A stretch of DNA of 44,085 nucleotides from an uncultured Gammaproteobacteria bacterium (GTDB taxonomy: Bacteria; Pseudomonadota; Gammaproteobacteria; Pseudomonadales; Pseudohongiellaceae): contig CAJXQP010000003.1 of the NCBI GenBank assembly GCA_913058275.1, forward strand, positions 1 to 44,085, given 5' to 3'. Positions 6,911-44,085 of the stretch are shown one piece after another (positions within the stretch are counted from its first letter, which is position 1; the number at the start of each line of letters is the position of its first letter). The notes beneath the pieces are model-generated. The model was not told the DNA's origin. It worked only from the letters and a program-made list of their open reading frames with translations, and made no database searches. The position numbers and the translations under genes were made by a program.

Positions 6911-8728
6911 CTATTCTAGAGCAAACACCCACAGCGCGGCCGGATCTTGACTACCTGGTACAAAACCAGAAAACCGGTTCTGCAACCCTAACCAAACACC
7001 CGTGTGAATATTGAGCTGCCCCGCAACAACCGCAACATATTGTTTTCCATCCACACTGTAAGTAATGGGAAACGCAGCAGGAATAGAACCAAGCGTAGCC
7101 TCCCATAAGATTTCGCCAGATTGTTGATCAAATGCCTTAAAGGTATTGTCGAGATACCCTAGGAACACCAGCCCTCCAGCGGTGGCCAAACTAGCAGATG
7201 CCGGCACGACTTCCTGCCGGTATTGCCATGCCAATTCTCTGGTTTTAAGATTGATAGCCTGTAGGCGACCGTAGTTGCCATCGCTGTTTGGTACCGGCCT
7301 GGTATCTGCACGTAATCCTGATGAGAGTAAGGTGCCGGTATCGTCGAGCAGCGTGTCCATACAGACTTCGAATATAGGCACGAACAGGAAACCAGTATCA
7401 TTGTTAATAGAGGAAGCATGCCAGTTGCGCCCACCTTGATAGTAAGGACAGACCGTTCGTACTTCTTCTGCATCGGGGAAGACATTGGGGTTGGGAATTT
7501 TTTCTCCAGTAACAGGATTTATCGCGCTAAAAAGATTTTGTACGCCAGAATCGACTGAAAATAGATACTCTCCGGTTGCTGCATCTAAGGCATCGAACAG
7601 TGCAGGTTTACCTGCGGTGACGATTACCTTTTTCATTTCACCATCGACTTCCAACTCGACAATGGAACGCTCAAAAGCCCAGTCCAAGTCGAACTGATCG
7701 TTGGCTACATGCTGGTAATGCCAAACAAGTTCTCCGGTAGCAGGCCGAAGCGCTAAAGTTGTGTTGGTATAGAGCGCATCATTGTTTACACCGCCTACAC
7801 CCAGGGAATAAAGCAAGGGACCGGTATTGTAAGTAGGCGATACACCGTAGAAGACAAGGTCCAACTCGGCATCATAGGCACCTGTGTTCCAGACCGATCC
7901 GCCCTGACGTTCCTCAAGAGGTATATTATTCCAGGTGTTTCCGCCGGGTTCGCCCGGCCTAGCCAAAGTATTAAAACGCCAGGTCTCAGTTCCAGTCTCC
8001 AAATCGATTGCAAAGATAAAACCACCACCGGGAACAAAAGAGGCTGCCACCCCTTGAATGACCTGGCCACCGGCGATAGTTGGCGCACTTCTCAGCGCAT
8101 AATCGGTGACCTCACCAGTATCTACGGCATGGTCCCAAATGACTTCGCCTGTTCGAGCGTTAAGTGCCACCATATGCAAGTCTGAAGTAGGCACCAAGAC
8201 TTTATCTTCATACAGTGCAATTCCAAACTTATGGCTGGTCACTGTTTCTCCGTCATGAGTGTAGCGCCAAAGCAGTTCACCATCGGTAGCATCCAATGCC
8301 AGTACAACATCGCCCGCGCTATAGAGAAACATGATTCCGTCATGGACTAAAGGCGTCGGCATGTTATTACCCGCCGTCACTTCTTGAGTCCAGGCTAACT
8401 GAAGATCAGCAACGCTTTGTTGGTTGATTTGATCGAGATTAGAAAACCCGAGATTATCGTAAGTGCGGCGCCAGGTTACCCAATCAGAATCTGGGGGATT
8501 CTGTAAGACTTCATCGGTGACGGAAGAATAGTCACGAAGTAAGGGAATAGAATTAGCGTCAACCGTAGCAGACTCTAATGAACTCGCTGCATTACTGCCA
8601 TAGCGTTCGAGAATTCCGCCAGAATTTTCCTCTACCTCTGCTTCTTCATCTTGCTGGGCAAAGTTCGCTCCACAAGAGAATGACAGCACGATGAATCCAG
8701 CCAGTAATTTCGGTACTATTTGCTTCAT
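6911..8728 (-). CDS. Secreted PQQ-dependent dehydrogenase-like quinoprotein
   Basis: This 605-residue protein has an N-terminal signal ('LLAGFIVLSFSCGANFAQQ') and an eight-bladed quinoprotein beta-propeller. Blade-type repeats 'LDATDGELLWRY' and 'LNARTGEVIWDH' are visible. 'WNTGAYDAELDLVFYG' and 'NDQFDLDWAFE' carry the acidic and aromatic residues typical of PQQ alcohol dehydrogenases. The C-terminus has the family-typical 'YSVDGKQYVAVV'. It lacks the cysteine pair seen in the quinoproteins at 8832 and 42880 ('GVAASFVPGGGF' replaces it). By family it would oxidise an alcohol or aldehyde in the periplasm and pass electrons to a cytochrome c; no C-terminal heme domain is present. AGGGGA precedes the ATG. 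It is followed, 103 bases upstream on the same strand, by a divergent paralogue, and is closer in sequence to the broken copy at 13668. Confidence 0.87.
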   Translation of the reverse strand: MKQIVPKLLAGFIVLSFSCGANFAQQDEEAEVEENSGGILERYGSNAASSLESATVDANSIPLLRDYSSVTDEVLQNPPDSDWVTWRRTYDNLGFSNLDQINQQSVADLQLAWTQEVTAGNNMPTPLVHDGIMFLYSAGDVVLALDATDGELLWRYTHDGETVTSHKFGIALYEDKVLVPTSDLHMVALNARTGEVIWDHAVDTGEVTDYALRSAPTIAGGQVIQGVAASFVPGGGFIFAIDLETGTETWRFNTLARPGEPGGNTWNNIPLEERQGGSVWNTGAYDAELDLVFYGVSPTYNTGPLLYSLGVGGVNNDALYTNTTLALRPATGELVWHYQHVANDQFDLDWAFERSIVELEVDGEMKKVIVTAGKPALFDALDAATGEYLFSVDSGVQNLFSAINPVTGEKIPNPNVFPDAEEVRTVCPYYQGGRNWHASSINNDTGFLFVPIFEVCMDTLLDDTGTLLSSGLRADTRPVPNSDGNYGRLQAINLKTRELAWQYRQEVVPASASLATAGGLVFLGYLDNTFKAFDQQSGEILWEATLGSIPAAFPITYSVDGKQYVAVVAGQLNIHTGVWLGLQNRFSGFVPGSQDPAALWVFALE

Positions 8729-8831
8729 TCTATTCCCCTATTTGTACGGAAAAGAATCCTGGAACGAACCACACGTAGGCAAACTCGAGTGAGTTACATA
8801 CATGAGATATTCCCCTGAATCGCTTCAGTCA

Positions 8832-10616
8832 TTATGGCAGAGCAAACACATAAACATTAGTACCGCGACTCGGACGTAACTCCGGCGTCAGGTTTACTTG
8901 TCCACTGCCAGTATTAACCGCGACATATTGTTTCCCATCGACGGCGAAGGTAATCGGATAGCCACTAACAGAAGAGCCAAGATTAACTTCCCACAGGATC
9001 TCACCAGTGTCATGGTCATGGGCGCGAAAGCGGCCATTGGAATCGCCACCGAAGATAAGTCCACCGCCTGTGGCGGCCAGCGACATGGTGCCAGCGCGTT
9101 GTTCATAGAGCCATTCGGTCTTGCCTGTCTCCGCCGAGATGGCACGGACTGTTCCAAGGTTCTCTGTGCCCGGAGTTAACTGATGGCGAGCCGCTAATGA
9201 ATAGATGGCCAAGCCGCCTTGGCCACCCGCAGTTAACGCTTGGGCAGTCTCACTTTCGAAATTTGCAGTGGCCAACATATTTGCGCAGGTATTTCGAAGT
9301 GGGTAATACATGGTATTGGTCAGTGGGCTATAGGCCCCCGCTTCCCAATCTTTACCACCGGTCCAAGACGGGCAAACGAAAACCACTTGTTCCGATTCGC
9401 GAAATACTACATCGGGGTTTTCAGTGACGGCGCCGGTTGCACCATCAATATCTTGAATAACATTTTGTTGCACAGTAGGAGTCGCCCAGAGAAATTCACC
9501 GGTAGCTCGATCCAGCGTGTAAACCACACCGGTCTTGCCCGGAATGCCAGTAATAACTTTGCGGACTTCACCGAACTCAAGGTCTGGATTTATCCACGTC
9601 ACCGCATCAGGGTCGGGTGCCACTCGGGTTTCAACTAATAACCTTTCGAAGGGGTGATCTAAATCCCAGTGATCATTCAAGTGCTGGTAGTACCAGCGCA
9701 TCTCTCCGGTATCTACTTCCAAGGCCATAGTGGAATTGTGATAAAGATGCTTGTTGTCCACACCACCGAGATAGAACTTCGGTGCCGGAGAGGTGACAGA
9801 AGTACCAAGAATGATTAGCTTAAGCTCGGGGTCGTAGCTGGGCACCATCCACGAGCCAACATGCTGCCGCTGCTCGAACGGCACATCTCCCCAAGTTTCG
9901 TCGCCCGGTTCGCCTGGCGCCGGTATTAAACGGCGTCGCCATAACTCTGCACCGGTGCTGGCATCGTGTGCCGTAATGACGCAAGCGTTGGGGCCACCCC
10001 AAGGCCGGCAGCTACGACCGGAAATAACTCTACCGTCGGCGATGATTGGCCCGGAACTGTGCGTAGCAGAGTTGACTTTATAGTCAAAAATTTTCGTTTC
10101 CCAAACCATTTCACCGGTGAGGGCATCCAGAGCGAAAACAAAATTGTCATCGCTGGTATTAATAATGAGGTTTTCGTAAATCGCTAGATTACGGTTATTA
10201 CGGGCATTGCCTCCAACCATCTCATAGAGATCGTCTGGAATATCACGGCGATATTCCCAGATAAAATCACCGGACTCGGCATCTACCGCCTGAATAACAT
10301 CATTAGCCTGAGGTACATACAAAATACCGTTATAGGCCAAGGGTGTTATTTCGCCGGTTCCGATCTCTAAATCGCGAGTCCACACCATGCGTAATTGATC
10401 TACGTTGCTGCGATCTATTTGATCCAGCGGGCTGTAGCCCCAGCTATCTAGGGTGCGGCGCCACATTAACCAATCGCTATCTGCGGGATTTTGTAACATC
10501 GCGTCGGTTACTAGCACAAAGTCGTCTTGCGCTAGAGAATTGAACGACAGGGAAAGAAATAGAACGAAACACACGAGATACTTACAGCATTTTATTCGCG
10601 GAGTATGATCAAACAT
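8832..10616 (-). CDS. Secreted PQQ-dependent dehydrogenase-like quinoprotein
   Basis: This 594-residue exported quinoprotein has a signal peptide ('FVLFLSLSFNSLAQ'), the opening 'DSDWLMWRRTLDSWGYSPL' and the W-docking repeats of PQQ alcohol dehydrogenases. It carries a cysteine pair in 'SCRPWGGPNACVITAHD', like many PQQ-ADHs. The putative catalytic acidic region is 'LNDHWDLDHPFE', and the propeller closes with 'FAVDGKQYVAVNTGSG'. It has no fused cytochrome domain. The start is supported by AGGAG 7 bases before the ATG. It shares strand and spacing with the quinoprotein at 6911 and may be cotranscribed, this gene being first. The two are clear paralogues but diverged, so they probably differ in substrate. 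Confidence 0.87.
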   Translation of the reverse strand: MFDHTPRIKCCKYLVCFVLFLSLSFNSLAQDDFVLVTDAMLQNPADSDWLMWRRTLDSWGYSPLDQIDRSNVDQLRMVWTRDLEIGTGEITPLAYNGILYVPQANDVIQAVDAESGDFIWEYRRDIPDDLYEMVGGNARNNRNLAIYENLIINTSDDNFVFALDALTGEMVWETKIFDYKVNSATHSSGPIIADGRVISGRSCRPWGGPNACVITAHDASTGAELWRRRLIPAPGEPGDETWGDVPFEQRQHVGSWMVPSYDPELKLIILGTSVTSPAPKFYLGGVDNKHLYHNSTMALEVDTGEMRWYYQHLNDHWDLDHPFERLLVETRVAPDPDAVTWINPDLEFGEVRKVITGIPGKTGVVYTLDRATGEFLWATPTVQQNVIQDIDGATGAVTENPDVVFRESEQVVFVCPSWTGGKDWEAGAYSPLTNTMYYPLRNTCANMLATANFESETAQALTAGGQGGLAIYSLAARHQLTPGTENLGTVRAISAETGKTEWLYEQRAGTMSLAATGGGLIFGGDSNGRFRAHDHDTGEILWEVNLGSSVSGYPITFAVDGKQYVAVNTGSGQVNLTPELRPSRGTNVYVFALP

Positions 10617-13667: not shown

Positions 13668-15096
13668 ATGTCTCTTACACACTCGGTCTTAAGAGTGTTG
13701 CTCACCAGCTTTTTGCTGACATCTACTCAGTCAACTTTCGCTCAGCCTAGTAACCGCTTAGCAGACTTAAGCCCAGTTACAGATGCGCAGCTCGCCAATC
13801 CTCCATCTGAGGATTGGTTGATATGGCGCAGGACCTATGATGCCCAAGGATTTAGCCCACTTGAGGAAATTGATAAGCGTAATGTCAGTCAATTAGGGGA
13901 GGCCTGGCGCACAGAGCTTCAAGAGGGCCCCAACATGGCTACGCCATTAGTACACGATGGGGTTATGTTTCTCGCCAGCACTCAGGACACAGTACTAGCA
14001 CTGGATGCGACCAGTGGAGAAGTATTATGGACCTATGAGCATCGCCCTACTGCCTTTCCAAGCTCGAAAATTGGCATTGCTTTGCATGGCGATAAAGTAA
14101 TTGTGCCAACCCAGAACATGCACGTAGTTGCGCTTGAAGCGCGCACCGGTGAGGTGATTTGGGATCATGCTATTGAAACACCCGGCAATACACCCCGCCC
14201 CTACTCTCTGCGCGGCGCACCTCTTGTTGCCAATGGCATGGTATTGCAGGGCGTTACGGCAACGATGATTCCCGAGGGTGGATTTATTGTCGGCCTTGAT
14301 TTGGATTCCGGCGATGAAGTGTGGCGGTTTCATTCGGTTGCCAGGCCGGGCGAGCCCGGCGGTAACACCTGGAACAACCTCGCCTTGGAAGACCGCAGCG
14401 GTGGATCTGTTTGGGTGCCCGCTAGCTATGATCCTGAGCTGGATTTAGCCTACTACGGTACCGCGCCAACCTACGATACCGCCCCTCTTCTGTATTCGCT
14501 AAATGAAGAGGGTGTGACAAATGAAGCCCTCTACACCAATGCCACGATTGCATTACGCCCCAAAACTGGCGAGCTGGTTTGGCATTTCCAGCATATGCCT
14601 AATGACCAATGGGATTTGGACTGGGTTTTTGAGCGACAGATAGTCGAACTAGAAGTTAATGGCGCCATGCGCAAAGTAATTGTGACGGCGGGAAAGATGG
14701 CACTCTATGATGCGCTAGATGCAGAAACCGGTGAATATATAGATTCATTTGACGTAGGCATTCAAAACATCGTTATTGCTATCGATCCTAAGACTGGGGA
14801 CAAGACAATTAACCCTATAGCAATACCGAATGCAGAAGAGGCGAATCTGTTATGCCCCATGGCCAATGGTGGACGCAATTGGCCATCGGCTTCCATCAAC
14901 CCCGTTTCCCAATTCCTTTCCCATTAGTTACGCCGTCGACGGCAAACAATATGTGGCTGTCGTGGTAGGCCAGCCTAGCCCCTTTCATGCGAGTATTTGG
15001 ATGGGTATGGTGAATGAGTTTCTTGGTGATCGCAGCCCTTTACTTAACCACACACGCAGCGGTCCGGCCATTGTTGTTTATGCTCTTAGCGAATAG
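13668..15096 (+). pseudogene. PQQ-dependent dehydrogenase-like quinoprotein broken by internal deletion
   Basis: The first 414 or so residues read as an intact quinoprotein close to the one at 6911 (signal peptide, 'WLIWRRTYDAQGFSPL', 'GGSVWVPASYDPELDLAYYG', 'MPNDQWDLDWVFE'). At about 14908 the sequence jumps from 'NWPSASINPVS' directly to the C-terminal blade 'FPISYAVDGKQYVAVVVG', now in another frame, so frame 1 stops at 14927. Compared with the 6911 protein about 105 residues (roughly 315 bases) are missing, including two propeller blades. TTTCCCA occurs on both sides of the join (14905 and 14917), consistent with a slippage or short-homology deletion. A good ribosome site (GGAG) and a plausible promoter (TTGAAG, 18 bases, TACTAT at 13601-13630) remain. 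Confidence 0.82.
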
Positions 15097-42445: not shown

Positions 42446-42883
42446 CTAGGGCTTTGAAACGATAGCTATGGAATCAAGAGCTTCCACACTGGACGGCAAT
42501 TCTTCGTCGCCCTCTGGAAATGCATTCTTATGCAGTATATAAGCGACCACATTCAAGTAGTCTTTTGCTGGTAGTTGGCCTGGGCGATCGGTGGGCATTT
42601 CGGCTTGAATCTTCTCGTAAAAAACGCCAAGTGTCCTTCCTTCCCATAAAAACATGAAACCCATTCCTACTAAGCCGGGTGAGTTGCTGTTGCCGCCTAG
42701 GTCCTGTCCGTGACAGGCGATACAGGTTGCAGTGTATACGGCTTCTCCACGAGCCGCTTGCTCGGCTGTATATACTCCTTCCCATATCGCTGTATTTTCC
42801 TGCCCACTACTAACATTCGTCGCCAGTGCGATCGCCGCGAAACAGAAGATAACTCTTAGGACAGACAAATTAGATGTCTTCAT
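42446..42883 (-). CDS. Class I c-type cytochrome, partner of quinoprotein
   Basis: A 145-residue exported monoheme cytochrome c. Signal peptide 'VIFCFAAIALATNVSSGQE'; heme motif C54-x-x-C57-H58 in 'TATCIACHGQDLGG'; the distal methionine is probably M96 in 'QAEMPTDRPGQLPAKDY'. Its ATG overlaps the quinoprotein stop by 4 bases (ATGA), so it is made together with the dehydrogenase. The natural reading is that it accepts electrons from the PQQ enzyme, as cytochromes c do in related alcohol dehydrogenase systems. Confidence 0.9.
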   Translation of the reverse strand: MKTSNLSVLRVIFCFAAIALATNVSSGQENTAIWEGVYTAEQAARGEAVYTATCIACHGQDLGGNSNSPGLVGMGFMFLWEGRTLGVFYEKIQAEMPTDRPGQLPAKDYLNVVAYILHKNAFPEGDEELPSSVEALDSIAIVSKP

Positions 42884-44053
42884 TCCGGTAGCGCAAAAAC
42901 ATTTATCGAGCTGCCATTACGCGGCCGACTTAGTTCCGGCGCGAGTTCTCTGGGCAGGCTGCCCGACCAACTTGCACCGCCGGTGCCGACCGGCATAGCG
43001 ATATACTGTTTGCCATCGACACTGTAGCTGATAGGAAATCCCTGATTCGATGTAGCGAGGCGAACCTGCCACAACAGCTCTCCATTCTCAGCATCCAATG
43101 CCGACATAGTGCGGTTCCAGTCACCAATAAAAACGAGGCCACCTGCGGTAGTCAGCGCTGCCGTATTAAACGGAGCTCGCGTCCTGTAACGCCACTTAAC
43201 TTCGCCGCTGGGTATATTCAGCGCAAGCACCTCACCCAAGTTGCCATCTGATTCAGGGTGATGGTAATTGATACGCCGCACTGGACCTGTGCCGCCGCCC
43301 CCTAGCTGTCGTTCTGTGGGGCCAAAAGTAGCGAGCTCGCAATTCAGCGTGATCGGAATATACATGGCGCTGGTGTCCGGTGAATAGGCCATCGCGCGCC
43401 AGCTTTTGAAGCCTGAAGTGCTCGGGCACATATTTAACTCCTCGCCGATGCGCGGAATCATACCGTCGCGATAGCTGATTCTTCCGGTGATTGGATCAAG
43501 ATTGACGATGGTCTGGTAACCGATATCAGTACCCTTGATGAACTCGCCTGTCTCCCGGTCCAGTTGCCACAGGATGCCGAGTTTGCCCATCTTGAACAGA
43601 GACTTCCTGCCATCGACATCGATAAGAATGTTCTCGAACACCTCATCCATGTCATGCGTCTCACCAGGTAGGTGTTGAAAGTACCAGGCCATCTGACCGT
43701 TATCTGGATTCAATGCCAGTGTGGAGTTGGTGTAGAGCGCGTCGCCGTCGCTACCGCGCACGGCTCTTGCCCAGGGTTTGGCCTGTGACGTGCCCCAATA
43801 GATCAGATTTGCTTCAGGGTCATAGGAACCTGCGACCCAGGCATCGCTGCCCGCTCGAAATCTAAGAGGTAGATCGCCCCAAGTATCGCCGCCCGGATCT
43901 TCGGGCCGGGCGACAGTAGACGTGCGCCACTTCTGCTCACCCGTGGCTGGATCATGGCCGGTGATGAAACAGACGTCTTCCTTATAGCGATCACAGCCGG
44001 TAATGCCGGTCACCAAAGTACCATTGGCGACGATTGGGCCCGCGGTATAGAAA
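42880..44053 (-). CDS. PQQ-dependent dehydrogenase-like quinoprotein, N-terminus missing
   Basis: About 391 C-terminal residues of a secreted quinoprotein, cut by the contig end. Propeller features: the cysteine pair 'GCDRYKEDVCFITGHD', 'SDAWVAGSYDPEANLIYWG', the acidic site 'ETHDMDEVFE', and the closing 'YSVDGKQYIAMPVG'. It resembles the 8832 protein (which also keeps the cysteine pair) more than 6911. The track gives its start as 'MCIRDS', but these residues come from adapter sequence at 44054-44085; genuine coding ends at 44053 with no start in view. It is coupled by overlap to the cytochrome c gene, the only quinoprotein here with an adjacent acceptor. Confidence 0.9.
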
Positions 44054-44085
44054 CTGTCTCTTATACACATCTGACGCTGCCGACG
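44054..44085. other. Nextera/Illumina adapter contamination
   Basis: The window ends in CTGTCTCTTATACACATCT, the 19-base Tn5 mosaic end, followed by CTGACGCTGCCGACG from the read-2 Nextera adapter. It is not genomic and creates the false N-terminus 'MCIRDS' of the last ORF. Confidence 0.98.

Follow-up and report, generated by a model that had tools for sequence, protein, structure and literature searches.

The last 32 bases of the contig analyzed here are almost certainly untrimmed Nextera adapter sequence, and the MCIRDS start of the open reading frame (ORF) that begins within them is spurious. The window, by which we mean the whole 44,085-bp stretch of DNA under study, is the entire contig C3 (positions 1 to 44085) of a 419-contig, 3.16-Mb assembly; because it spans the complete contig, the contig truly ends at its right edge. 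The following features lie at or near that edge.

42446..42883, minus strand: intact cytochrome c gene, 145 amino acids (PF13442, PF00034), adjoining the dehydrogenase gene
42880..44053, minus strand: C-terminal 390 residues of a PQQ-dependent dehydrogenase, methanol/ethanol family (PF01011, TIGR03075)
44045..44053, plus strand: probable Tn5 tagmentation site, GTATAGAAA, matching 6 of the 7 informative positions of GTNYWRNAC
44053..44070, minus strand: false start MCIRDS, made of adapter bases 44070 to 44054 and one genomic base (44053), from the ORF list and comparison of the junction codon with relatives
44054..44072, plus strand: synthetic 19-bp Tn5 mosaic end, CTGTCTCTTATACACATCT, exact match, with 416 exact copies in the assembly
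44073..44085, plus strand: first 13 of the 14 bases of the Nextera Read-1-side adapter arm, GACGCTGCCGACG, in reverse complement as found at the end of read 2, exact match

Positions 44054 to 44085 read CTGTCTCTTATACACATCTGACGCTGCCGACG, which is the 33-base Nextera adapter CTGTCTCTTATACACATCTGACGCTGCCGACGA without its final base. This adapter is what read 2 of a Nextera library shows on read-through, according to a report that also documents the Read-1-side arm (PMC3906532), and the same sequences are given for trimming elsewhere (PMC6460022). On alignment, all 32 of 32 bases are accounted for by an exact mosaic end followed by the documented arm, the order that identifies Nextera read-through, which bears out the proposal of an initial annotation made from the letters alone. 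The window's own adapter tail stops one base short of reaching the index, and the mosaic end is present in a single copy in this contig. A match by chance is so improbable as to be negligible: about 5e-15 occurrences of the 32-mer are expected in the window, and about 2e-5 mosaic ends are expected in the whole assembly, versus the 416 seen.

Adapter ends across the assembly

The exact copies of the 19-bp mosaic end (219 forward and 197 reverse) compare with 838 contig ends, and about half of the assembly's contig ends carry an adapter remnant. A reversed-pattern control of the mosaic end gave no matches in the same search. The first 12 bases of the mosaic end occur 438 times, and shorter adapter stubs are present on some other contig ends (L339 and L340), so the count of 416 is a lower bound on the number of adapter-bearing ends. 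Most of the exact copies (365/416) run on into an adapter arm, and both arms are present, the Read-1-side 30-mer in 146 copies and the Read-2-side 30-mer in 219. Among the contig ends that were fetched, 61 of 61 copies face outward, none of them more than 54 bases from the end; contig-end placement rests on these 61 ends and on the coordinates of the matches, rather than on inspection of all 416.

Beyond the arms, a single i7 index, CGAGGCTG, and a single i5 index, ATAGAGAG, occur in every assembly end that is long enough, the i7 index in 165 exact 42-mers of the assembly. Contig end L336 runs through P7 into poly-A, as expected for a read that passes the end of the library molecule. Several metagenome bins from the SRR3933xxx series share one of the two indices, and none was seen with both. 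The adapter tails of the assembly cluster at 47 to 50 bases (24/61), and those fetched from a congener, G029, measure 47 to 49 bases; the pile-up at 47 to 50 bases is probably a length effect of the assembler k-mer or of read processing.

The mosaic end derives from the ends of Tn5, and a fragment of a real genomic Tn5/IS50 end or of an engineered mini-Tn5 insertion would look similar. We nevertheless regard such an origin as very improbable. Compared with the natural outside and inside ends, the mosaic end has 3 and 4 mismatches in 19 positions, respectively; it is followed by kit adapter and index sequence instead of transposon DNA; and some 416 outward-facing copies at contig ends with a library index behind them are unlike the pattern of a transposon.

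The sequence on the genomic side of the junctions also points to adapter. We assembled a set of 307 contig-end mosaic ends, of which this assembly contributed 61 and public GTDB and IMG/VR contigs the rest, and compared the 9 bases before each with GTNYWRNAC, the target motif reported for Nextera kits (PMC8224930). The match was 3.72 of the 7 informative positions across the 307 junctions, versus 2.52 for background 9-mers (P ~1.5e-53), and 3.92 versus 2.52 for this assembly alone (P ~7e-15). Given this enrichment, the junctions are best read as tagmentation cut sites. We found no evidence against the adapter explanation.

The events behind such an end can be proposed as follows. Cutting by a Tn5 transposome would have left a library insert that was too short for the read, so that read 2 would have continued past it, first into the mosaic end and then into the arm on the Read-1 side. 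The adapter was presumably left untrimmed, or trimming failed, and the assembler would have added the read-through bases to the contig and halted there. On the opposite strand, the mosaic end (AG ATG TGT ATA AGA GAC AG) supplies a start codon and no in-frame stop, by which the truncated PQQ-dehydrogenase gene gains its spurious MCIRDS start.

Truncated gene at the contig end

The gene cut off here encodes an ordinary PQQ-dependent alcohol dehydrogenase. Its fragment matches PF01011 above the cutoff of that family, and its match to TIGR03075 (249 bits, positions 156 to 530 of 530) falls below the 480-bit full-length cutoff, plausibly owing to the missing N terminus. Relative to the TIGR03075 family, the loss of the N-terminal third from the gene in the window reflects the end of the contig and has no biological cause. 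Judging from the family and the gene order, the enzyme likely oxidizes alcohol in the periplasm and passes electrons to the cytochrome. Paralogues of the dehydrogenase are abundant, with 35 matches to the window protein in the assembly and 14 to 37 per genome in congeners; several lie on the window's own contig, at 7016 to 10574 (minus strand), 13752 to 14258 (plus strand), and 42880 to 44053 (minus strand).

Homology is lost exactly at the junction. When the minus-strand ORF, adapter included, was compared with six congeners by BLASTN, the alignments (79 to 97% identity) started in 6/6 cases at query base 33, the first nonadapter base. Upstream of this point, the congeners continue as ordinary coding sequence, in which ...ADPTLGY is followed across the junction by FYTAGP(I/V)..., without MCIRDS. 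The full-length protein is 587 to 595 amino acids long in four congeners, with 197 to 205 residues preceding FYTAGP, and the fragment in the window lacks about that many N-terminal residues. The mosaic end is absent from the corresponding loci of the relatives. The claim of the initial annotation that the terminal bases do not continue a genome thus agrees with the comparison, in which similarity begins at the first base inside the adapter. Searches of the assembly for the missing 5′ part of the gene returned only paralogues of at most 48% identity and the window's own 20-residue overlap, so the missing part falls in an assembly gap; the true upstream continuation in this strain would be that predicted from the sequences of its relatives.

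False protein termini

The minus-strand ORF at 44070 to 42880 encodes 396 amino acids and begins ATG TGT ATA AGA GAC AGT (MCIRDS). In its sixth codon, AG is adapter and T is genomic, and relatives have TAT (Tyr) at this position. An in-frame ATG followed by a long ORF is also what a genuine alternative N terminus would present, in a strain-specific truncated or restarted enzyme. This reading is extremely improbable, since all of the MCIRDS residues are adapter encoded except for the last base of the S codon, congeners have 197 to 205 further residues and no MCIRDS, and unrelated ORFs at other contig ends of the assembly share the identical start. The adapter-derived start had been expected to make the last ORF pass as a complete protein. 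That start is real as read, but the same frame is open to the contig edge (401 amino acids, RRQRQMCIRDS...), so gene callers may differ in labeling the gene complete or partial.

In the inward direction, the mosaic end reads AGATGTGTATAAGAGACAG. One of its frames, ATG TGT ATA AGA GAC AGN, gives MCIRD[S/R], with residue 6 set to S or R by the first genomic base; another, GTG TAT AAG AGA CAG, gives MYKRQ; and the third meets TAA. The outward frames give LSLIHI, CLLYTS, and VSYTHL. Among the 307 contig-end copies, ORFs of at least 100 amino acids include 49 that start with MCIRD[S/R] and 36 that start with MYKRQ. The earlier reading is refined accordingly: MCIRDR is possible as a start besides MCIRDS, and MYKRQ (from GTG) is a further false start that is nearly as frequent.

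It had also been suggested that database proteins with the MCIRDS start are probably the same artifact. Besides the 49 ORFs, this is supported by Escherichia phage Lambda_ev066 protein VUF54226.1, flagged as incomplete at that end, which reads LSLRRQRQMCIRDSP..., contains RRQRQMCIRDS, and has adapter at the record end; the general statement draws on such examples. At the other terminus, phage ev207 protein VUF52988.1 ends in ...VSYTHLTLPTICSV, and the Klebsiella plasmid RefSeq protein WP_286497426.1 ends in ...CLLYTSDAADD. An annotated tail fiber coding sequence of phage vB_EcoM_WFK terminates within adapter. It is very likely that the mosaic-end peptides MCIRD[S/R], MYKRQ, LSLIHI, CLLYTS, and VSYTHL form a recurrent, screenable signature of false termini in protein databases and that a preserved index helps to identify the library of a contig. 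When the literature was searched for MCIRDS and its sister peptides from the mosaic end, no paper on false protein termini in databases came up, and a search on AntiFam and adapter returned nothing evidently relevant by title and abstract.

Occurrence in other genomes and records

The mosaic end was found in 3 of 58 relatives and in 6 of 399 genomes of the phylum (~1% of the phylum sample), this assembly being included in both counts. The adapter 33-mer occurs in 26 of 50,697 phage records and 8 of 72,556 plasmid records and in none of 20,395 complete Escherichia coli records. Among the matches listed, 121 of 133 mosaic ends in GTDB contigs and 125 of 127 in IMG/VR contigs lie within 100 bases of the end of the fetched stretch. 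The congener G029 contains 30 mosaic-end copies with a different i7 index, TCCTGAGC, and its contamination is therefore independent.

Other arrangements were also seen. In the interior of a 4.3-Mb contig of another genome (L329; G353:C1:448500-448750), CTGTCTCTTATACACATCT is followed directly by GATGTGTATAAGAGACAG; the pair resembles the junction adapter of Nextera mate-pair libraries, less one base, and would have been built into the chromosome during assembly. Internal mosaic ends flanked on both sides by nonadapter sequence are present in two GTDB contigs (L145 and L151) and in phage MK373775.1 (L320), and these are probable chimeric joins through adapter. In seven NRRL actinomycete scaffolds (L083, L115, L136, L152, L168, L181, and L192), the mosaic end is followed by C, CT, CTG, or CTGA and then by runs of N, and in L111 it is followed by CTGAGCGGGCTGGCAA. 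In these scaffolds and L111, what seems to be an earlier version of the Nextera adapter has stayed on the ends of the constituent contigs.

Comparison with known systems

The value of these observations is for data quality only, in that synthetic sequence sits on about half of the contig ends of this assembly. Adapter ends create false start and stop contexts for genes at contig edges and mask their truncation, and identical peptides at the termini of unrelated proteins can mimic conserved motifs. The mosaic-end signature is easy to screen.

The oligonucleotide, the cause (an insert shorter than the read), and the order of mosaic end, arm, index, and P7/P5 are the same as those described for Nextera XT read-through (PMC3906532); there the sequence was in reads, whereas here it persists in a deposited assembly. 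Adapter concentrated at contig ends has been described in microbial genome databases for both isolates and metagenome-assembled genomes, and there too the copies at right ends are forward and those at left ends reverse complemented (PMC11536531). That study counted the TruSeq 12-mer AGATCGGAAGAG, and neither the word Nextera nor the word protein appears in its main text. The same 19-mer is translated in transposon-made fusion proteins, with LSLIHI... at one end and ...DVYKRQ at the other (PMC4106830), but those are deliberate in-frame insertions into a cloned gene rather than a sequencing artifact. Contig-end adapter contamination and Nextera read-through are thus already known, and MCIRDS-type termini are a small, practical, and nonbiological addition to them.
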